A program made the position numbers and the translations under genes. Below the pieces are notes generated by a model, which was not told where the DNA came from, did not search any database, and worked only from the letters and a program-made list of their open reading frames with translations. 64,000 bases of DNA from Desulfocapsa sp. (lineage in GTDB: Bacteria; Desulfobacterota; Desulfobulbia; Desulfobulbales; Desulfocapsaceae), in NCBI GenBank assembly GCA_016765495.1, contig JAESPV010000087.1, positions 1 to 64,000 on the forward strand, written 5' to 3'. Positions 38,213-53,303 of the stretch are shown one piece after another; position 1 is the stretch's first letter; every line of letters starts with the position of its first letter.

Positions 38213-38578
38213 ATGATTATTAATCCTTCCGCCCATGCAATGATTCCACGCAGGAATTCGTTTCGGAGAGTAGGCATCGGGAGACGTGGGCAAGCACTGT
38301 CTATTCCCGGTGGAAAGCAGTTATGGTTGGGTGTGTCAAAGGTTCTTGCTGGTGCAGTTGCTTTTCTTTTTATGGCGTCTTTTTTTATCAATGGCTCGCT
38401 TACACGAGTTTCTGGAGAAATTGAGCAGCTGGAAGCAATTCATAATGAACTTGTTGAAGCCAATATTTTGCTGCGTGCTCAGAAGGCAAGATTGTTCTCG
38501 CCGGAATCAGTGGGCGTGCTGGCTGACAATCAACTCTCTATCCAGCTTCCGGCATCAGGGCAGTATTATCAGTTGTAG
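38213..38578 (+). CDS. ftsL: FtsL-like septum formation protein
   Basis: A 121-residue bitopic protein: a basic N-terminal tail of about 45 residues, one membrane helix (KVLAGAVAFLFMASFFINGS), and a short periplasmic coiled coil (VSGEIEQLEAIHNELVEANILLRAQKARL). Sequence is poorly conserved, so identification rests on topology and position between rsmH and ftsI. AGAGG is 7 nt before ATG 38213; an open frame back to 38120 overlaps rsmH and is not preferred. FtsL links FtsQ/FtsB to the FtsWI synthase, which is why the state of FtsI here is notable. Confidence 0.75.
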   Translation: MIINPSAHAMIPRRNSFRRVGIGRRGQALSIPGGKQLWLGVSKVLAGAVAFLFMASFFINGSLTRVSGEIEQLEAIHNELVEANILLRAQKARLFSPESVGVLADNQLSIQLPASGQYYQL

Positions 38579-38620: not shown

Positions 38621-40504
38621 ATGGTCAGGAGATCCCGTCTCAATACAGCAAATAATGGAAGACGGCGCCTACGGTTGTTACTGTTTTCTTTGTTGTGTGT
38701 AGTGATTACAGCAGTGGTGTGGCTGAAATATAAAGAACAACTGAAAAATATTGCTACTATCTGGCAGGAAACGTTTCCTGTAGAAACTCAGGCAGTAAAC
38801 TCTTTTAGAGGGACGATTTATGATCGAAACTTTAAAGAGCTGGCTCGGACACTAGAACGTGTATCGCTTTATGTCAGACCCAGAGAAGTAAATGATATTG
38901 CAGGAACTGCAGCTGTTCTGACAGAGTTGCTTGCTCTGTCGGAGTCTGAATTAATAGCTCGGATGCAAAGGGATTCTCATCTTGTCTGGCTTCGTCGAGA
39001 TATCGGCCAGGAAGATGAGGATGCTATTGCAAAATTGAATTTGCCGGGGATTTATCTGCACCGGGAGCTTGCAAGAAGTTACCCCATGCAGGAATACGCA
39101 TCACACCTGCTTGGATACTCTGAAAATAATCAGGGGCTTGCCGGTGTTGAACATTATTACAATCGCCTCCTCAATCATGATCGCGTTCTGCAGAAAGATT
39201 TTCCAGCCATTGACCTGAAAGGGCAGAGGCAGACGAGCAGCAACGGTCATGATCTGGTTCTTACGCTTGATATGAAGATCCAGGCCATTCTTGAAAAGTA
39301 TGTAGCAGGCTTGGGGCAAAAGATGGGAAGTGGCCGGATAACATCCCTTTTGCTTGATACCGCTCAGGGTGAAATTATTGCAGGGGTGAGTTACCCCACC
39401 TACAATTTGAACAGTGTCTGGCAGAATGAAAAAGAGGTTCTGGATAATCTTTTTCTAACCCCCATGGTTGTTCCTGAAGAGATTCGAAAATTCTTTCGGG
39501 ATGCGGCTCTTCTGCAAGGCGGCTGGGAGCAGACTACTCAGGTGTATCCCTGGAGTCTGGTATCAGAGAAAACAAATTTTTCCAGGCAGCTCAGGCTTTG
39601 GGAACGTTTGCAGTTGACCACTGAGCTGAATGTTGATTTTTCAAGTAATAAAACGAATCTTAATGATCTACAACAATATGTGGGGTGCCTTCCCACAGTA
39701 GATTTGGGTACGGTGCCAAAGATAGCAGCACCGTTGAAAGTGCTGCTTGGTATGACTCATCTCTTAAATGGTGGGAAAAAGATTCAACCCCATATCCTGG
39801 ATAGAATCATGGAAAGGCCTGATCAGAGAGATTTCTTTTATGACGTGTTTCATGGTCAATCGAGTGGGCGAAATGTGTTTCCTTCTCTTATTTCGACGGA
39901 GCTTAGACGGTTACTGAAGAGTCAGGGGCGGGCAGGAGTGCTTGGCTCAATATCACTTTCAGGTGATACTGTCTCTTTAGTTAAGGAGGGCTCGAAGAGT
40001 GCGGACAGTTATTATGTCAGGGACCAGATGGCGCTGATTATGATTCCTGCAGAAAAACCGGAGTTGATCCTGCTTCTTGCTGCGCGGTCAAAAGAGTTGG
40101 AGCCGGGAGTTGGCTATTCGTCATTGTGTGATACTATTGATTCTGTTCTTCCATCAATGGTGGCACTGCAGCAGATCAGTCACAATGTGGCTGATGTACT
40201 TGAAATCGAGGGAGGGGGTGAACGGAACTTCAAGGCTGCGGAAAAAAAGTTTGAAGTGAAAACTGAAGCAGGTCTGGCTGGAATGCTTGACCAGCAGGTT
40301 GTGCTTATGCCGAATTTGAAAGGCCTCAGTATCAGAAAAAGTTTGCGTCTTCTGCAACGTGCTGGTTTGAGTATCACTGTAAAGGGAACAGGAAGGATTG
40401 TTTCACAGAGTCCAAAGGCTGGAAAAGCCATACAAAAGGGTGAACATTGTGTGCTCACTCTAAAAACTGATAAAGTTCCCGGAAAGGGAATGTCGAAAAA
40501 CTAA
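38621..40504 (+). CDS. FtsI-like class B PBP homologue with degenerate active site and C-terminal PASTA domain
   Basis: 627 residues: basic tail, one membrane helix (LLLFSLLCVVITAVVW), a PBP dimerisation domain (VNSFRGTIYDRNFKELART; RSYPMQEYASHLLGY; GLAGVEHYYNRLL), a transpeptidase-like region from about 205 (DLVLTLDMKIQAILEKYV; LLLDTAQGEIIAGVSYPTYN), and a PASTA domain (about 560-622). Where FtsI has EPGSTVKP this protein has VPEEIRKFF (284-292): the nucleophile Ser is gone. The SxN region is shortened without a match in context, and the KTGT strand aligns with KEGS (455-458). Length and frame are intact, so it is a conserved pseudo-enzyme rather than a broken gene. Probably a structural divisome protein (inference). 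Confidence 0.8.
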   Translation: MVRRSRLNTANNGRRRLRLLLFSLLCVVITAVVWLKYKEQLKNIATIWQETFPVETQAVNSFRGTIYDRNFKELARTLERVSLYVRPREVNDIAGTAAVLTELLALSESELIARMQRDSHLVWLRRDIGQEDEDAIAKLNLPGIYLHRELARSYPMQEYASHLLGYSENNQGLAGVEHYYNRLLNHDRVLQKDFPAIDLKGQRQTSSNGHDLVLTLDMKIQAILEKYVAGLGQKMGSGRITSLLLDTAQGEIIAGVSYPTYNLNSVWQNEKEVLDNLFLTPMVVPEEIRKFFRDAALLQGGWEQTTQVYPWSLVSEKTNFSRQLRLWERLQLTTELNVDFSSNKTNLNDLQQYVGCLPTVDLGTVPKIAAPLKVLLGMTHLLNGGKKIQPHILDRIMERPDQRDFFYDVFHGQSSGRNVFPSLISTELRRLLKSQGRAGVLGSISLSGDTVSLVKEGSKSADSYYVRDQMALIMIPAEKPELILLLAARSKELEPGVGYSSLCDTIDSVLPSMVALQQISHNVADVLEIEGGGERNFKAAEKKFEVKTEAGLAGMLDQQVVLMPNLKGLSIRKSLRLLQRAGLSITVKGTGRIVSQSPKAGKAIQKGEHCVLTLKTDKVPGKGMSKN

Positions 40505-40624
40505 ATACATCTAGCGGAAAAGGAAAGTGTTGTGGGAATTGTTCCTCTGTGGGGTGTCAGTTACCGAATATCTTCTGCCCGCAGGGCATCATGTTCAGCT
40601 TTACGACCGAAACAGGAAACAAAA

Positions 40625-43600
40625 ATGTCCAATAAAGAACACAGCGACCTCCGCAATAACTGGGTTTGTACAGTCCCCGGTACTGTTGTGTCATCTGCCG
40701 GGGAAACCGCCCTGGAAGTTCTCGTTGAGTCGCTTGATGTTACTGTTATTTCCGGTAATCCTGCAATATGTTCCATCAGTAAAATCACCTATGATTCCAG
40801 AAATGTTTGTCCCGGAACGCTCTTCGTTGCTCTGGTTGGCAGTAAAAGTAATGGCCATGACTTTGTGGATCAGGCAGTGAAGGCTGGGTGTTCTGCTTTG
40901 CTGCTTGAGACGGCTCAGGTGGATTTGTCCCAATATGCTGTCAAAAGTGAGCTTTGTATTCTTGAGCTGAGTGATACCCGAAAGGCCTATGGAGTACTTG
41001 CGGAAACCCTTTTCTTAAATCCTGCGCATGACCTGACTCTGCTCGCCATTACTGGAACAAACGGAAAGACCACCAGCAGTTATTTATTGGAAGAGGTCTT
41101 GCGGCAAAGTGGCAAACAGGTGGGAGTACTTGGTACTATTAATTATCGCTATGATGACTCGCAGGGAGAATTACAGGAGATTCCGTCCTCCTTTACGACA
41201 CCGGAACCCATGCTTCTGCAGCAAAACTTACGGGAAATGGTTGATAGTGGTGTGGATACCGTGATCATGGAAGTTTCATCCCACGGGCTTGAGCAAAATC
41301 GTATAGGGAACCTCCTGTTTGATGTTGCAGCGTTTACGAATCTTTCTCGAGATCACCTCGATTACCATAGTAATATGGAGGATTATTTTGCAGCAAAGTT
41401 GCGATTGTTTACCAGACATTTACAGGATTCCGGGATTGCAGTGGTTACATTTGGAGGGGAAGACACACGGTGGAGTGATCGATTGCACGCAGTCTGTCTT
41501 GATGCTGGCATCACTATGCTTAATTGTGGAGATCCTGATAAGAGTGATATCTATCCCTTAAACGTCAGGGGGGATTTGAGCCAAACAGTAATAAACCTGC
41601 AAACTCCAAAAGGTAAATGTAAAATAATCTCTCCTCTGGCGGGTGATTTTAATGTGGCAAATATCCAGACAACGCTTGCAATGGCCATGGCTTTGGGGAT
41701 TCCAATAGCTGATATTGCAGTATCTCTCAGCCGAGCAGTTGGTGCACCTGGGCGGATGCAGCGAATAGCTGTAAGTTCGCAGGAACAGAGTTTTCGCCCA
41801 ACTGTTTTTGTGGATTACGCACACACTCCCGACGCCTTGGAGCAGGTATTAAAAACTATCAAGGCACTTCCCCATGGAAGCCTTTACTGTATATTTGGCT
41901 GCGGCGGGGATCGGGACAGTGGCAAACGGCAACTGATGGGTGAGATAGCTGGTAATTATTGTGATGTCTCAATTCTTAGCGATGATAATCCACGTTCTGA
42001 AGATTCCGACGTTATCCTTTCTGCCATTGTTGAGGGAATCTCAAAAACAACTCTTGTGCAGAGAGATCAAGCCTGGCTGAATGAAAAAGGGGCTGATGAA
42101 CACGGCTTTGTAGTGATTGCGGATCGTCACCGGGCTATCGCTGATACTGTCGCAGCAGCAGGGAATCATGATATTGTTCTCATCGCAGGAAAGGGGCATG
42201 AACAGTATCAACTCACTCCAAAAGGGCGCAGTTTTTTTGATGATAGCCTTGAGGCAGCAGAAGCGTTGAGCGGCTGGAGAATTGAGTCGCTTGTGAACGC
42301 GACAAAGGGCAAACTCATAGGGACGGATTGTTCTCATAAACCACTTAACTCAATTACAATAGATTCCAGGAAAATTAAAAGTGGCGATGTCTTTGTGGCA
42401 ATTATCGGAGAGCACTTTGACGGCCATGATTTTGCAGAACAGGTTGTAGCGGCAGGTGCAGGCTGTCTGATTGTTGAACGTATACCAGAAATTCCCCTTA
42501 CTCTTCCAGTGGTATTGGTCAAGAATACGGAACAGGCTTTGGGCGATCTTGCTTCTTACCGAAGAGCATGCATGAGAGAGATTTCCACTCCTCAAGTTGC
42601 GGCTATTACCGGCAGCAGTGGTAAAACCACAGTCAAAGAGATGTGTGCTGCAATTTTTCTGCAGCAGTGGCCTGAGCAAGTTGATGCACCAGCCAAAAGA
42701 GTACTGAAAACAGAAGGGAATTTTAACAATTTGATTGGCTTGCCCTTATCACTCCTTCCGGTATCTCCAAAACATAAGGCTGTAATTCTTGAGATGGGAA
42801 TGAATCGCCCCGGTGAGATAAAAAGACTGACTGAGATCGCAGCTCCTGATATTGCCTGTATCTTAAATGTACATGGTGCGCACCTCCTTGGCCTTGGCAG
42901 TATTGAAGGGGTGGCAAGAGCAAAAGAGGAATTGTTTGCGGAGTGTGATAAGGACACTGTTTTGGTAATCAATAACGATGACGTCAGAGTTGTGAGTCTT
43001 TCGCAAAAGTACGAACGGAAGAAACTTTTTTTCGGTTTGGCAAAGGAAAATTCTGATTCACTTGATGTCTATGCAAGTGACAGGAAAAAAGGGGATTTTG
43101 AGGACTTGTTTTTTACCCTTCACGTGGCAGGCCAACAAGCTCCGGTTCATCTTCAGGTACCTGGGCTTCATAATATTTTGAATGGACTTGCAGCGGCAGC
43201 AATTGCCCATGCCGCAGGTATTGATATCGCTGTCATTGCCAGGGGCCTGTCTGCTTTTGTGTCAACTGATCGTCGTATGGAAGTGCTTGATGGCCCCGGT
43301 GGAAGTCGTATTATCAACGACACCTATAACGCCAATCCCGAATCTATGAAGGCAGGGCTTACTACTCTTCGTGGACTTGGAGCCGGAAAACGGTTTGCCA
43401 TTCTTGGTGATATGCTTGAGCTTGGAGGGGACAGTGAGGTCTTGCACAAAGAAATTGGTGCCCATACTGCAGCTGTCGGTATTGATTTTCTAGGAGTTAT
43501 TGGCGAATTTTCTTCGTTTACTGCAAGTGCTGCCATTGAAAATGGTATGGATGAAAACGCAGTGTGTATTTTTTCTAAACAGGATGAGTGTCACGCTTGG

Positions 43601-43711
43601 TTGACAGAAATGCTCGCCAGGCAAAACGCTGAAAAGGGATCGTATGTCCTTGTGAAGGGTTCCCGTGGTATGCATCTTGATAAAATTGTTGAACGACTGA
43701 TAGGAACATAA
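40625..43711 (+). CDS. murE-murF: Fused MurE-MurF: UDP-MurNAc-tripeptide synthetase and D-Ala-D-Ala ligase
   Basis: About 1028 residues. The first about 530 are MurE: ITYDSRNVCPGTLFVAL, ATP-binding AITGTNGKTTSSYLLE, EVSSHGLEQNRI, VDYAHTPDALEQ, and the SDDNPRSED motif for meso-diaminopimelate. The second half is MurF: SITIDSRKIKSGDVFVAI, AITGSSGKTTVKEM, LEMGMNRPGEIKRL, INDTYNANPESMKAGL and FAILGDMLELG. It adds the third, then fourth-fifth residues of the cell-wall stem peptide in one chain. I prefer ATG 40625 (AGGA 7 nt upstream); a GTG at 40532 is in frame. No stop or start lies between the halves. Confidence 0.93.
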   Translation: MSNKEHSDLRNNWVCTVPGTVVSSAGETALEVLVESLDVTVISGNPAICSISKITYDSRNVCPGTLFVALVGSKSNGHDFVDQAVKAGCSALLLETAQVDLSQYAVKSELCILELSDTRKAYGVLAETLFLNPAHDLTLLAITGTNGKTTSSYLLEEVLRQSGKQVGVLGTINYRYDDSQGELQEIPSSFTTPEPMLLQQNLREMVDSGVDTVIMEVSSHGLEQNRIGNLLFDVAAFTNLSRDHLDYHSNMEDYFAAKLRLFTRHLQDSGIAVVTFGGEDTRWSDRLHAVCLDAGITMLNCGDPDKSDIYPLNVRGDLSQTVINLQTPKGKCKIISPLAGDFNVANIQTTLAMAMALGIPIADIAVSLSRAVGAPGRMQRIAVSSQEQSFRPTVFVDYAHTPDALEQVLKTIKALPHGSLYCIFGCGGDRDSGKRQLMGEIAGNYCDVSILSDDNPRSEDSDVILSAIVEGISKTTLVQRDQAWLNEKGADEHGFVVIADRHRAIADTVAAAGNHDIVLIAGKGHEQYQLTPKGRSFFDDSLEAAEALSGWRIESLVNATKGKLIGTDCSHKPLNSITIDSRKIKSGDVFVAIIGEHFDGHDFAEQVVAAGAGCLIVERIPEIPLTLPVVLVKNTEQALGDLASYRRACMREISTPQVAAITGSSGKTTVKEMCAAIFLQQWPEQVDAPAKRVLKTEGNFNNLIGLPLSLLPVSPKHKAVILEMGMNRPGEIKRLTEIAAPDIACILNVHGAHLLGLGSIEGVARAKEELFAECDKDTVLVINNDDVRVVSLSQKYERKKLFFGLAKENSDSLDVYASDRKKGDFEDLFFTLHVAGQQAPVHLQVPGLHNILNGLAAAAIAHAAGIDIAVIARGLSAFVSTDRRMEVLDGPGGSRIINDTYNANPESMKAGLTTLRGLGAGKRFAILGDMLELGGDSEVLHKEIGAHTAAVGIDFLGVIGEFSSFTASAAIENGMDENAVCIFSKQDECHAWLTEMLARQNAEKGSYVLVKGSRGMHLDKIVERLIGT

Positions 43712-44797: not shown

Positions 44798-46185
44798 TGA
44801 ACTGGAATAAGAAAATAAAGGCAGGTGAGCGGGCTGTTGTTGTGGGTATGGGGATATCCGGTCGCGCTGCTGTTGCTTTTCTTTTAGGCAAAGGTGCTGA
44901 AGTTTTTGTAACTGACAGTCGTGATTGTAAAGATCTTCCTGCAAGAGATCAGGCATATTTGCTTGAACAGAATATTATTTTTGAAGGTGGTGGCCATAGT
45001 AAAGCGTTTATGTCGCAGGGTGATTTTATTGTAATCAGCCCAGGGGTTCCCACTGATTTGAAAATTCTTAAAGAACTGCAGGATGCAGACATTCCAATTT
45101 TAGGAGAACTTGCACTTGCCACGCCATATCTTACAGAATCTATAGTGGCAGTCACAGGAACCAACGGGAAAACTACAGTGACGTCGCTTATTGGCGAACT
45201 GCTTCGTGCATCTGGTAAAAAAGTTTTTGTGGGGGGTAATATAGGCACACCAATTCTTGATTATCTGCGGCAGGATGAACGTGCGGAATTTCTGGTGTTA
45301 GAGCTATCAAGTTTTCAATTAGAGTCAGCAGGTAACTTCTGTCCCCATATTGGTGTTCTGTTAAATATTACACCTGACCATCTGGATCGTCATAGGGATA
45401 TGGCTCAATATGTTGCTGCCAAGATGAAAATGTTTAGTCATCAAAAAGCATCTGATAAGGCAATAATTTGTAATGATGATCCGGTGTGCCAGCAGCTTAA
45501 GCCCACGCTTGTTGAGCAGGAGGTGTATTGTTTCGGTAACCGGGAAAGTGCTTGTGCGGCAATTGGAAGCGGGCAAGCGTTTCAGATAAGTATCGCAGGT
45601 CAGGTCGATCACTATTCTCTGTTGGACACAGCGCTGAATTCTTATACAGGATTGTTGAACAGTCAGGCTGCAGTTCTGGCAGTTTCACTTCTTGGAGCAA
45701 AACACGCAGACATTGTAAAAGGCCTGCAATCCTTTAAGACAGCAGAACATCGTTTGCAGCATGTGAGAACCCTGGGCGGTGTAGAGTATTACAATGATTC
45801 CAAAGCGACCAATACCGGAGCAGTACTCAGTGCCCTGGAATCGTTTCCCGGAAATATCATCCTTCTTGCGGGTGGAAGAGACAAAGGGGAAGATTATACA
45901 GTGTTACGGGAAGTAATTGAGGAAAAGGTGAGGGCATTGATTCTTCTTGGTGAGGCCGCAGGTGCGATGGATGAGGCGCTGGGAAAAACAGCTATACGAC
46001 TCAGAGCTTCTTCAATGGATGAGGCTGTGAATCTTGCTACTGGTATTGCACGTTCTGGAGATGTGGTGTTACTGGCTCCTGCGTGTTCAAGTTTTGATAT
46101 GTTTGCTGATTATGGACATCGAGGTGAAGTTTTTATGGAGTCTGTACTGAAATTGCAGGAAGAGCAAAGAGAACAGGTTGCCTGA
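44797..46185 (+). CDS. murD: UDP-N-acetylmuramoylalanine--D-glutamate ligase
   Basis: A 462-residue Mur ligase adding D-Glu to UDP-MurNAc-L-Ala. N-terminal Rossmann part VVVGMGISGRAAVAFLL, ATP site VAVTGTNGKTTVTSLIGELL, then LELSSFQLE, LNITPDHLDRH, YNDSKATNTGAVLSAL and ILLAGGRDKG. The stop TGA overlaps the start of murG (TGATG), leaving no room for ftsW, which stands here in most dcw clusters. Confidence 0.97.
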   Translation: MNWNKKIKAGERAVVVGMGISGRAAVAFLLGKGAEVFVTDSRDCKDLPARDQAYLLEQNIIFEGGGHSKAFMSQGDFIVISPGVPTDLKILKELQDADIPILGELALATPYLTESIVAVTGTNGKTTVTSLIGELLRASGKKVFVGGNIGTPILDYLRQDERAEFLVLELSSFQLESAGNFCPHIGVLLNITPDHLDRHRDMAQYVAAKMKMFSHQKASDKAIICNDDPVCQQLKPTLVEQEVYCFGNRESACAAIGSGQAFQISIAGQVDHYSLLDTALNSYTGLLNSQAAVLAVSLLGAKHADIVKGLQSFKTAEHRLQHVRTLGGVEYYNDSKATNTGAVLSALESFPGNIILLAGGRDKGEDYTVLREVIEEKVRALILLGEAAGAMDEALGKTAIRLRASSMDEAVNLATGIARSGDVVLLAPACSSFDMFADYGHRGEVFMESVLKLQEEQREQVA

Positions 46186-49664: not shown

Positions 49665-50669
49665 GTGCAAAACAAAACAGTATTTGAGAAAGTTAAAACA
49701 TTCTTTGAGAGGCGAAGCAAAAGCGAAAGAACATCTTCGCCGTTGGCACAAAAGTTTTCAAATGGGCAATCGTATAAAAACGGTCATTCCGGGTCCGGAA
49801 CCAGAAAAAAAAGTTTCCTGGAAAAATGGAGAACAAAAAAGGAAAAGCGTCTACAGAAAAAACCAATTTTCCCAGTAGGAAGAAATACAGAAAAACAGAA
49901 CCGGCTTCCTCTTAACGGTTTCCTGTTCATTGGCGTTATGTTGACTGGAGTATATCTGTTTGTGATGGGTCCTATGCAGTCGCTTTACGGGAACCTGCAA
50001 TATTTTCGTATTCATGAGATAGAAGTAAGTGGGTGTGTGATGACAACTCCGGCTGCTTTAAGGAAATTTGCAGATATTTCCTATGAGTTGAATATGCTCA
50101 GCATTGACCCGGATGCTATGCAAAATCGTCTTCTGAAACATCCCTGGGTTGCAGGGGCGGCTATTCGACGAATATGGCCAGACAGACTCAATGTGGTCAT
50201 TCGTGAATATCGCCCGCACGCTCTGGTGGTACAGGAAGATAAGGATGGCTTTGAATATCTTGATCGAAAGGGGACAGTTTTTGCAACGGTGATCCCCGGA
50301 CAGGATATTGATTTTCCAGTTATAAGCGGGCTGGATGCATTTGACACGGAAGCAGAAAAGAAAGAGCTGTTGAATGTGGCAACTTCATTTTTGAGCTTGG
50401 CTGCACGGAATAATCCAAATTTGCCTACTCAGAATATCTCGGAAATTCATTTTAGCAGTGATGGCGAATTAATTCTGTATCTGGTTGATCATCCCTTTCC
50501 GATATACTTTGGCAAGGGTGAGATTAAACGAAAATATTATCAGTTACGTGATGTGTTGGGAGTTTTGTATAGGAAGAAAAGAGGTGTGTCCATGATTGAT
50601 AAAGTGGCGTATATTCGGATGGATTACCAGAAAAATAAAGTTCTAGTAGCGAAAAATCAGGCAGGGTAA
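49665..50669 (+). CDS. ftsQ: FtsQ-type divisome protein
   Basis: A 334-residue bitopic protein. A long basic cytoplasmic tail of about 80 residues precedes one membrane helix (GFLFIGVMLTGVYLFVMG), a POTRA domain (FRIHEIEVSGCVMTTPAALRKFADI; LLKHPWVAGAAIRRIWPDRLNVVIREYRP) and the FtsQ/DivIB beta domain. Its start is a GTG at 49665. It links FtsB/FtsL to the septal machinery. The family is well recognised from the POTRA segment. Confidence 0.92.
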   Translation: MQNKTVFEKVKTFFERRSKSERTSSPLAQKFSNGQSYKNGHSGSGTRKKSFLEKWRTKKEKRLQKKPIFPVGRNTEKQNRLPLNGFLFIGVMLTGVYLFVMGPMQSLYGNLQYFRIHEIEVSGCVMTTPAALRKFADISYELNMLSIDPDAMQNRLLKHPWVAGAAIRRIWPDRLNVVIREYRPHALVVQEDKDGFEYLDRKGTVFATVIPGQDIDFPVISGLDAFDTEAEKKELLNVATSFLSLAARNNPNLPTQNISEIHFSSDGELILYLVDHPFPIYFGKGEIKRKYYQLRDVLGVLYRKKRGVSMIDKVAYIRMDYQKNKVLVAKNQAG

Positions 50670-50672
50670 AGC

Positions 50673-51950
50673 ATGAATGACAGAGAAGATATAAAGTCAA
50701 TTGAGGAAATTGAGATTGACCTTCATGACGAGGTCAGGGAGGAGCGTGAGCCGGGTGAGCTTGTAGTTGGTCTGGATATCGGCACTACAAAAATCTGTTG
50801 TGTGGTGGGTGAAATATTTGAAGATGGAATTGATATTATTGGTGTTGGAACTGCTCCCTCTGTCGGCTTGAAAAAAGGGGTGGTGGTGAATATCGAATCG
50901 ACGGTGAAATCTATTCGTCAAGCTGTAAAACAGGCTGAAGAATCTGCCGGGTGCGATCTTCGTACTGTCTATGTGGGAATTGCGGGGAATCATATCAAGG
51001 GATTTAACAGTCCCGGAATCCTGGCTATTAATGGCAAGGAGATCAGGGAGAACGATGTTGAGGATGTAATTGTTGCTGCCCGTACTGTAAAGATTTCTGA
51101 AAATCAGCAGATTCTCCACGTTTTGCCTCAGGAATATATGGTTGATGATCACACCGGGATTCAAAATCCACTGGGAATGACCGGGGTCAGGTTAGTAACC
51201 AATGTTCACATAGTTACAGCAGATATGGCGGCTGTTCATAATCTCTATACCTGCTGTGATAAGGCAGGACTTGAAGTTGCCGATATGGTTCTTGAATCCA
51301 TTGCATCAGCTCACGCGACACTGGCTCCGGATGAAATGGAATTAGGTGTCGTGCTGCTCGATATCGGTGGTGGTACCACAGACCTTGCTGTGTTTTGTGA
51401 TGGAACCATTCGGCACACCTGTGAAATTGGACTTGGCGGACACAATCTTACCAATGATATTTCTGTTGGTTTGCGAACTCCACTTCAGGATGCTGAACGT
51501 TTAAAAGAAGATTTTGGCTGTGCCATTTCTTCATTGATAAAACCAAGTCATGTTGTGAATGTTCCAACTGTTGGTGATCGGGAACCTCGAAAGGTGACAC
51601 AGAAGGTGCTGGTTGATATTATACAGGCAAGGATGGTTGAGATTCTGGAAATGGTAAATCAGGATCTGATTAATTGCGGATTAAAGAACAGGATCAATGG
51701 CGGCATTGTTCTTACTGGTGGAACAGCACTTCTTGCCAATCTTGCAGAGCTTGCCGAGCAGATTTTTGATTTGCCTGTACGTATCGGATATCCGGTGCAG
51801 ATAGGCGGTAAAGTACAGGAAGTTCAGACTCCACGCTGTACAACAGGGGTCGGGCTTGTAATGTATGGGCGTCAGCACCAGGCAGACAGTCGTTACAGTG
51901 AGAGTTCCATGGTTGGCAGGATGAAAGATTGGCTTAGAAAAATAATGTGA
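50673..51950 (+). CDS. ftsA: Cell division protein FtsA
   Basis: A 425-residue actin-like protein that anchors FtsZ to the membrane. Motifs: LVVGLDIGTTKICCVVGE (phosphate 1), LLDIGGGTTDLAVF (phosphate 2), LTGGTALLANLAELAEQIF (adenosine). The C-terminal amphipathic helix is MVGRMKDWLRKIM, the membrane-targeting sequence. An unusually acidic 28-residue N-terminal extension (SIEEIEIDLHDEVREE) precedes the actin fold. Follows ftsQ at 3 nt. Confidence 0.96.
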   Translation: MNDREDIKSIEEIEIDLHDEVREEREPGELVVGLDIGTTKICCVVGEIFEDGIDIIGVGTAPSVGLKKGVVVNIESTVKSIRQAVKQAEESAGCDLRTVYVGIAGNHIKGFNSPGILAINGKEIRENDVEDVIVAARTVKISENQQILHVLPQEYMVDDHTGIQNPLGMTGVRLVTNVHIVTADMAAVHNLYTCCDKAGLEVADMVLESIASAHATLAPDEMELGVVLLDIGGGTTDLAVFCDGTIRHTCEIGLGGHNLTNDISVGLRTPLQDAERLKEDFGCAISSLIKPSHVVNVPTVGDREPRKVTQKVLVDIIQARMVEILEMVNQDLINCGLKNRINGGIVLTGGTALLANLAELAEQIFDLPVRIGYPVQIGGKVQEVQTPRCTTGVGLVMYGRQHQADSRYSESSMVGRMKDWLRKIM

Positions 51951-52073
51951 TTATTTTTGTTTTTTGTAAAAAGATGTTTCAGTGACAGACCATAAATGCT
52001 ATAATTTATATGTTTAAATTTTATAGAAATGAAGCCTTTGAATGCTTTGTTTTTTGTGAACACGGGAGAGAAT

Positions 52074-53303
52074 ATGCCGTTTAGAATGGCGGAAACAGAA
52101 GGCGTTGCGGTTGTTAAGGTTATTGGCATAGGTGGTGGTGGCGGAAATGCCATCAATACCATGGTTGAAAATCGCCTGCAGGGGGTCGAGTTTATAACTG
52201 CCAACACGGATAAACAGGCACTCGATCAATCCCGTGCGGATGTGTGCTTACAGATTGGTCCGGGGATTACCAAAGGGCTGGGCGCCGGAGCTGATCCTGA
52301 AATTGGTGAACAGGCTGCCGGCGAATCCATTGATGAGCTGACCGACAGTCTCAAGGGCGCAGATATGGTTTTTGTAGCTGCAGGACTTGGCGGTGGAACC
52401 GGCACAGGGGCTGCACCTGTTGTGGCAAAAATTGCCAAAGAATTAGGTGCGCTAACTGTGGCCGTTGTCACAAAGCCCTTCCATTTTGAGGGGAAGTTTC
52501 GCATGCGTAATGCTGAGCAGGGCTGGGCTGAATTGCGCAAGTATGCCGATACAATTATCACAGTTCCCAATGATCGTCTGCTTTCTCTTATGCAGAAGAA
52601 TTCCAGGCTCGCCGATATGCTCAGTATGGCTGATAAGGTCTTGTTGCAGGCAGTAAAAGGAATTACTGATCTGATAAATGTTCCGGGACTTATGAATGCT
52701 GACTTTGCTGATCTGCGTACTGTTATGCGGGAGGTTGGCCCTGCTATAATGGGATCCGGTTTTGCCGTTGGTGAAAATCGTGCAACTGAGGCTGCAAACC
52801 GGGCCATTGATAATCAACTTCTGGAAGATGTGGGGATTGATGGTGCACATGGATTACTTATTAACGTTTCCGCCTCCGAAGAGTCTTTCACACTAGCTGA
52901 ATTTATGGAAGCATCTGCCCTTATTCAGGCTAAAGTAGATGATGAAGCTAAAGTGGTTATCGGTGCTCTATATGATGATGCACTTGGTGATGAATTACAC
53001 GTAACTGTTATTGCAACGGGAGTTGGTGAGTCGGTTCCTGACAAAAAGAACCTTGTTAATGTTACAGTTCCAGCAAAGCAGGCACCACAAAAGGAAGAGC
53101 CAGAACAAGTGCGTACCGGAAATCTGACTCCTGCTTCACCTAATCGACCTTCCGGGACGTCCATTTTCCCTTCATCGAACTTTAATGGATTTGAAAATCA
53201 CGGTATTTCCTCGGGGGAGAATGCTCAGTCTGGCACGGGTGCGAAACCCTGGAATGAGGATTATATGGAAACACCAACGTACCTCAGGAAAAAGGCCAAC
53301 TAA
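52074..53303 (+). CDS. ftsZ: Cell division protein FtsZ
   Basis: A 409-residue tubulin-like GTPase that forms the Z ring. Motifs: VIGIGGGGGNAINTM, the tubulin signature AAGLGGGTGTGAAPVVA, and T7-loop residues NVPGLMNADFADLR. The variable linker from about residue 320 is followed by the conserved C-terminal peptide TPTYLRKK, which binds FtsA and other partners. I place the start at ATG 52074, with GGGAG 5 nt upstream; an open frame back to 52029 lacks a site. Last gene of the dcw cluster. Confidence 0.97.
   Translation: MPFRMAETEGVAVVKVIGIGGGGGNAINTMVENRLQGVEFITANTDKQALDQSRADVCLQIGPGITKGLGAGADPEIGEQAAGESIDELTDSLKGADMVFVAAGLGGGTGTGAAPVVAKIAKELGALTVAVVTKPFHFEGKFRMRNAEQGWAELRKYADTIITVPNDRLLSLMQKNSRLADMLSMADKVLLQAVKGITDLINVPGLMNADFADLRTVMREVGPAIMGSGFAVGENRATEAANRAIDNQLLEDVGIDGAHGLLINVSASEESFTLAEFMEASALIQAKVDDEAKVVIGALYDDALGDELHVTVIATGVGESVPDKKNLVNVTVPAKQAPQKEEPEQVRTGNLTPASPNRPSGTSIFPSSNFNGFENHGISSGENAQSGTGAKPWNEDYMETPTYLRKKAN

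Follow-up and report, generated by a model that had tools for sequence, protein, structure and literature searches.

An FtsI homologue without transpeptidase motifs in the dcw cluster of Desulfocapsa sp. and among its relatives in the order Desulfobulbales

FtsW with FtsI is regarded as the septal wall synthase of nearly all bacteria and as a main beta-lactam target. A gene that occupies the place of ftsI in a dcw cluster, while encoding a protein without catalytic motifs, raises the question of what such a protein is kept for and which enzymes then build the septum. One such gene lies in the stretch of DNA analysed here (hereafter the window), the 64,000 nucleotides from position 1 to 64,000 on the forward strand of contig JAESPV010000087.1 in an assembly of the sulfur-cycle bacterium Desulfocapsa sp. 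(GCA_016765495.1). The source bin comprises 108 contigs and is 99.96% complete and 7.28% contaminated.

The dcw locus and its FtsI homologue

The dcw genes of the window run in the order mraZ, rsmH, an open reading frame at the ftsL position, ftsI, a murE-murF fusion, mraY, murD, murG, murC, murB, ftsQ, ftsA and ftsZ. The following features are relevant to the argument.

38213..38578, + strand: small open reading frame, 121 aa, at the ftsL position (named by position only)
38621..40504, + strand: ftsI homologue without catalytic motifs (pseudo-transpeptidase), P0001, 627 aa (Pfam, MAFFT, hhalign, motif counts)
38798..39127, + strand: pedestal or PBP_dimer domain, residues 60-169, conserved (Pfam)
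39470..39496, + strand: VPEEIRKFF, residues 284-292, at the SxxK motif position, with Ser replaced by Glu287 (hhalign, column counts)
39965..39976, + strand: DTVS, residues 449-452, at the KTGT motif position (hhalign)
40301..40444, + strand: PASTA domain, residues 561-608, several columns of which are invariant across the order rows compared (Pfam)
46185..46185, + strand: murD-murG junction, the ftsW site in related clusters having ftsW; murD and murG abut here
49665..50669, + strand: ftsQ (POTRA_1 and FtsQ_DivIB_C)
50673..51950, + strand: ftsA
52029..53303, + strand: ftsZ

The frame at the ftsL position gave no Pfam match from its residue 3 on (38219-38575).

Its place in the dcw cluster and its class B architecture (N-terminal anchor and pedestal) mark P0001 as an orthologue of FtsI by descent. 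It resembles Escherichia coli FtsI/PBP3 (b0084) in its position before murE, its membrane helix, its near full-length profile alignment and the pedestal motifs RGxIxDR..LA, RxYP and GxxGxE. The 627-codon frame is intact at 38621-40504 (+), as the original prediction had stated, and the dimerisation and C-terminal PASTA domains that it had named both score above their Pfam cut-offs (45.8 bits over residues 60-169 and 41.3 bits over residues 561-608, respectively). The match to Pfam Transpeptidase reaches 15.8 bits, under the cut-off of 22.1. Sequence matches in the PDB are class B PBPs, mainly over the pedestal and the start of the transpeptidase (TP) domain. An AlphaFold2 model built from a two-row alignment of P0001 and a congeneric protein (L005) was unusable (mean pLDDT 32, pTM 0.20), and nothing was drawn from it.

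The motif register in P0001 was read from a family-level hhalign alignment of 31 sequences against 22 canonical ones (100% probability, E = 4.6e-59); for 50 sequences from the order against 22 canonical ones the probability was 100% (E = 1.4e-76) and the alignment covered E. coli residues 7-561. VPEEIRKFF lies opposite EPGSTVKPM, Ser307 facing Glu287 and Lys310 facing Lys290, and the MAFFT register there is the same, in agreement with the earlier placement of the degenerate SxxK at residues 284-292. The SxN segment, expected to be shortened, is indeed mostly deleted in the hhalign alignment; an SSN string at residues 341-343 falls outside the aligned SxN position, and most congeners have SGGK or similar there. 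KTGT had been equated with KEGS at 455-458, an assignment that does not hold, as hhalign sets D449-T450-V451-S452 opposite it, six residues off, and the MAFFT alignment also has DTVSLV in this position, with a gap. P0001 differs from E. coli FtsI in that SxxK, SxN and KTG are all absent and in that no FtsW partner was found in its genome.

Motif states and selection among relatives

P0001 is 76% identical to L005, from an uncultured Desulfocapsa of the order Desulfobulbales; the order name for the compared genomes rests on L005, whose sequence is identical to that of genome G015 (L007). Across this order the dead state of FtsI seems to be general. The Ser and Lys pair occurs in 0/53 aligned order rows (52 distinct), in 0/9 rows from five genomes of a separate lineage, family f28, and in 46/46 rows from 37 other Desulfobacterota genomes, and it was absent from all 33 further order genomes; the order contributed 85 distinct sequences in all. 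Since the pair is present in 0/53 and 0/33 in the order and in 46/46 of the other Desulfobacterota rows, its loss in P0001 is not chance. The survey of homologues proposed with the original prediction gave a loss of the pair in every order row counted, against intact motifs in those 46 rows. Serine stands at the Ser307 column in 1/53 order, 0/9 f28 and 46/46 other rows, and lysine at the Lys310 column in 9/53, 0/9 and 46/46; because only nine order rows have lysine there, Lys290 is not kept among the relatives. At the remaining motif columns of the 53 order rows, Ser359 is serine in 22, Asn361 asparagine in two and Lys494 lysine in one.

These counts span 13 of the order's 15 families, and the motif alignment leaves out L057 and L059 (duplicates of L039 and L042) as well as L001 and L002 (MrdA). 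Contig-edge frames of 385-487 aa from families f2 and f11 (L302-L304, plus L305) are without an EPGSxxK or KTG string, and were left out of the counts as their alignment is ragged. No SxxK was found between -15 and +20 of the motif site among the 53 order rows, while a wider span of 75 residues gave scattered SxxK strings at unaligned sites in five of the 33 further rows; the recurrent S..K string in the order is SLRK, inside the PASTA domain. Six order members (L011, L027, L035, L054, L283 and L297), none of them with the Ser and Lys pair, have a KTG-like string. The KSGT or KTGS string of L054, L283 and L297 may be chance or a remnant. Pfam Transpeptidase matches at E <= 0.01 in 16 of 28 members count against full erosion of the domain, and its cut-off is exceeded by the dcw FtsI of at least five order genomes (G034, G040, G041, G042 and G053), whose aligned rows have no Ser and Lys pair.

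The order forms one clade with support 1.00, with f28 nearby (FastTree), and a single clade of order plus f28 is not rejected (p-AU 0.421; LG+G4, 19 rows). The intact sequence L147 joins f28 with FastTree support of 0.04 and with SH-aLRT 60 in a mixture-model tree. A single shared loss is compatible with the trees, and two losses are possible. Among the relatives of f28 that were drawn, the f28 family code is found in genus g48 only.

Purifying selection is evident in congeners. The eight closest congener pairs, the window protein not included, have dN/dS of 0.10-0.18 over the whole protein and 0.07-0.14 over residues 206-530, and the latter range, within the formerly catalytic domain, argues against decay. 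Six f28 pairs, with few changes, gave 0.19-0.27 and 0.19-0.33, respectively. The motifs are gone, yet the former TP domain is not free to decay, and surfaces elsewhere are conserved. Mean pairwise identity among 50 order rows is 0.40 in the pedestal and 0.28 in the TP domain; in 21 intact homologues it is 0.43 and 0.49, the TP domain being the more conserved, the reverse of the order. PBP_dimer and PASTA are present in 28/28 members scanned, and most of the invariant columns belong to the pedestal, to the first part of the TP domain or to PASTA (L007, L026 and L038 were left out of the hhalign, invariant-column and identity comparisons). P0001 therefore has the attributes of a pseudoenzyme: a homologous fold (by sequence profile only), lost catalytic residues and purifying selection in congeners. 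The claim that a retained septal PBP would have lost its transpeptidase activity is strongly supported by the motif census, purifying selection and the shift of conservation from catalytic domain to pedestal.

Absence of ftsW and the remaining wall synthases

No ftsW was found in the window genome, which leaves a septal SEDS-class B pair without its cognate FtsW. A SEDS gene lies between murD and murG in none of the 21 order clusters (those on a long enough contig) and none of the four f28 clusters, in which SxxK is also absent, and 16/16 others have the SEDS gene and all three motifs; these 16 were chosen from the best P0001 matches, not randomly. Across the 41 clusters, FtsI is dead in 25/25 without ftsW and intact in 16/16 with it. 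Both the absence of ftsW and the order-wide spread of the dead FtsI state were overlooked in the original prediction. The murE-murF fusion of the window (40532-43711, 1059 aa) recurs in the order: 13 of the 21 order clusters carry such a fusion (families f1, f4 and f12), and none of the other eight or the four f28 clusters does; it is possibly a marker of one sub-clade.

Among order genomes at least 95% complete, 101/105 have exactly one SEDS gene, the exceptions being G000 with two (one a strain duplicate), G045 with one gene in two pieces, G173 with one and a fragment, and G155 with none. A PF01098 search of 56 relatives gave exactly one SEDS gene in 52, two in G000 and G045 and none in G017 and G026. 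In the SEDS tree all 17 dcw proteins, E. coli FtsW among them, form one clade (support 1.0), and on the opposite side (51/51, support 0.855) stand 35 order sequences (two genomes represented twice), three from f28, 12 other non-dcw sequences and E. coli RodA. This placement identifies the retained SEDS protein, among those examined, as RodA. One SEDS gene each was found in four f28 genomes of the phylum draw, and the three looked at adjoin mrdA. Four small, single-contig genomes of family f39 (G079, G114, G141 and G165) gave no P0001 match and one low-scoring SEDS gene.

Of the 105 order genomes, 102 have exactly two class B PBPs (PBP_dimer proteins); G000 has three (MrdA twice) and G155 and G039 have one each, the FtsI of G039 being visible only as a contig-edge piece. 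Among the matches listed, each genome has one high-scoring class B PBP, MrdA, and one low-scoring, the dcw FtsI. The motifs SxxK, SCD and KTG[TS] of MrdA are intact in 30/30 examined, loci L086-L115 being excluded because they cut mrdA. In the window genome mrdA lies beside mreD and rodA (contig C45, with a strain copy on C33), so that the second class B PBP sought with the original prediction does exist, and is MrdA beside rodA rather than a division-type enzyme. The mreD-mrdA-rodA locus is present twice in this bin (G000), the copy on C33 (L002) being full of ambiguous bases compared with that on C45 (L001), and the bin therefore probably mixes strains. G155 (family f12, 99% complete) has no SEDS match and a dead FtsI as its sole class B PBP, which reflects either missing assembly at mrdA-rodA or a cell that has no SEDS-class B pair at all.

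The window genome also encodes, by PF00905, one PBP1A and one PBP1B, and a large class A PBP was found through its GT51 domain. Among the matches listed, 54 of 56 relatives have a class A PBP whose frame size is PBP1A-like (labelled by frame length and score), the exceptions being G007 (85% complete) and G014 (88% complete). The large class A PBP, P0002 (L156:2359-5718, -; 1,119 aa), has GT51, SxxK and KTGT with a large insert in its TP domain, and is followed by a TPR lipoprotein of 612 aa (L156:404-2242, -), with which it possibly forms an activator pair. GT51 matches in frames of at least 1,079 aa occur in 50 of 56 relatives among the matches listed; such long frames are common in the order and are present in some other Desulfobacterota. 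P0002 was considered as a unique replacement septal polymerase and rejected: long matches are also present in intact-FtsI genomes (G071, G084 and G107; also in G118, G144 and G169, whose FtsI was unaligned), and no full-length large class A PBP was found in the four f28 genomes searched or in the complete genome G008. With no such match in f28 or G008, no single replacement tracks the loss.

Probable division without a catalytic FtsI

At the sequence level these genomes have an FtsI without catalytic motifs, no ftsW that could be found, RodA and MrdA intact where examined, and FtsZ, FtsA and FtsQ. With the dead FtsI under selection and FtsW gone, division is probably carried out by other wall-building enzymes. 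The best explanation, with a probability of about 0.7, is an ancient loss of the septal FtsW-FtsI synthase, FtsI being kept as a non-catalytic divisome scaffold or regulator and the septum being made by class A PBPs and/or RodA-MrdA. The transpeptidase site would have been destroyed long ago in the ancestor of the Desulfobulbales, in step with loss of the partner polymerase FtsW, and the dead protein would stay in an FtsZ-FtsA-FtsQ divisome, its membrane anchor and pedestal serving partner binding and PASTA perhaps sensing the wall. A scaffold role is plausible by analogy with known systems. Septal peptidoglycan would come from the synthases still present: polymerisation would most likely fall to a class A PBP, and cross-linking to that protein's own domain or to MrdA. 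That the whole order and f28 divide without FtsW-FtsI, pseudo-FtsI acting as a non-catalytic hub that directs class A PBPs and/or RodA-MrdA, is a probable, somewhat less secure extension; it would take in the septa of cable bacteria, the FtsI sequences compared including that of no named cable bacterium.

The main alternative for septal synthesis is that RodA-MrdA is called to midcell, the sole SEDS-class B pair thereby performing both elongation and septation with pseudo-FtsI as its adaptor to FtsQ and FtsA. In its favour, the remaining SEDS enzyme is RodA and the remaining class B enzyme an active MrdA, and both, unlike the large class A PBP, are common to the order and f28. Against this, in Clostridioides difficile, where the canonical FtsW/FtsI pair is also absent, a class A PBP is described as dividing the cell and the essential SEDS-class B pair as elongating it (PMC10693644), and G155 shows no SEDS gene and a single class B PBP, although one assembly gap could account for both. 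Because of the C. difficile precedent class A PBPs are favoured as the septal synthase, at something like even odds, and RodA-MrdA is a tentative second choice.

That P0001 retains enzymatic function, through a rewired active site (e.g. Glu287/Lys290) or as another activity, is very improbable. Purifying selection does reach the former TP region, and conservation of P285, P310 and W311 is at least 90% across 28 members, but the order varies freely at the catalytic positions (the Ser column holds 12 residue types and the Lys column 15), no Ser, Cys, Lys or Glu of the motif region is invariant in the conserved-column comparisons, and MrdA with intact motifs exists. Slightly less probable still is a relic with no function, which operon structure would retain as a passenger of the dcw cluster. 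In its favour, the TP domain has diverged much more than that of intact homologues, the gene is in two frames in G033 and G017 is listed with one stop; most order members nevertheless have long open frames and low dN/dS, pedestal and PASTA columns are invariant or nearly so across families, and a relic would hardly persist through so many families (motifs aligned in 13/15). In the single contig of G033 (L122) ftsI and murB are each split in two frames, so these look like sequencing indels rather than decay. An artefact of a mixed metagenome bin, with the true ftsI and ftsW elsewhere or lost in assembly, would accord with the 7.28% contamination and the duplicated mrdA-rodA locus with ambiguous bases, and is contradicted by complete, single-contig genomes in the same state (G024, G031, G038, G183 and G184) and by the same dead FtsI in the named record L005.

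A retained, non-catalytic FtsI, the preferred reading, has precedents in the B. subtilis PBP 2B S309A mutant and C. difficile PBP3 (PMC5656894, PMC12539705, PMC10693644). In Bacillus subtilis PBP 2B S309A catalysis is likewise dispensable and the structural role in the division complex kept; that protein is a laboratory mutant with PBP 3 as backup, whereas the Desulfobulbales case is natural and fixed, and no further class B PBP of the division type was found. The PBP1-driven C. difficile divisome is similar in having no canonical FtsW/FtsI pair, as is predicted here for a functional one, and a class B PBP that is non-catalytic in division. It differs in that its dcw-encoded synthases are retained and serve sporulation and FtsA, according to PMC10693644, is missing, whereas in the Desulfobulbales the dcw class B PBP itself is naturally dead across the order, FtsA, FtsQ and FtsZ are kept and ftsW is gone.

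FtsW has already been reported absent, together with ftsN and zipA, from four genomes of the Desulfobulbaceae (two of Electrothrix, two of Desulfobulbus); the available parts of that paper list FtsI among recruited divisome proteins without mention of its motifs (PMC7873302). To that Ca. Electrothrix/Desulfobulbus list the present analysis adds the dead site, and the link between it and the loss of ftsW, across the order. A literature search (titles and abstract starts, with most subscription papers and all preprints outside it) found no naturally dead FtsI in this group.

A natural, clade-wide case allows the structural role of FtsI to be told apart from its catalytic one, a question so far approached via point mutants, and warns that the place and name of FtsI can belong to a protein without an active site. 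The dead FtsI predicts indifference to FtsI-specific beta-lactams. In the Desulfobulbales, division independent of FtsW/FtsI can be studied in bacteria that retain FtsZ and FtsA, and the finding would alter how septation in cable bacteria is modelled.
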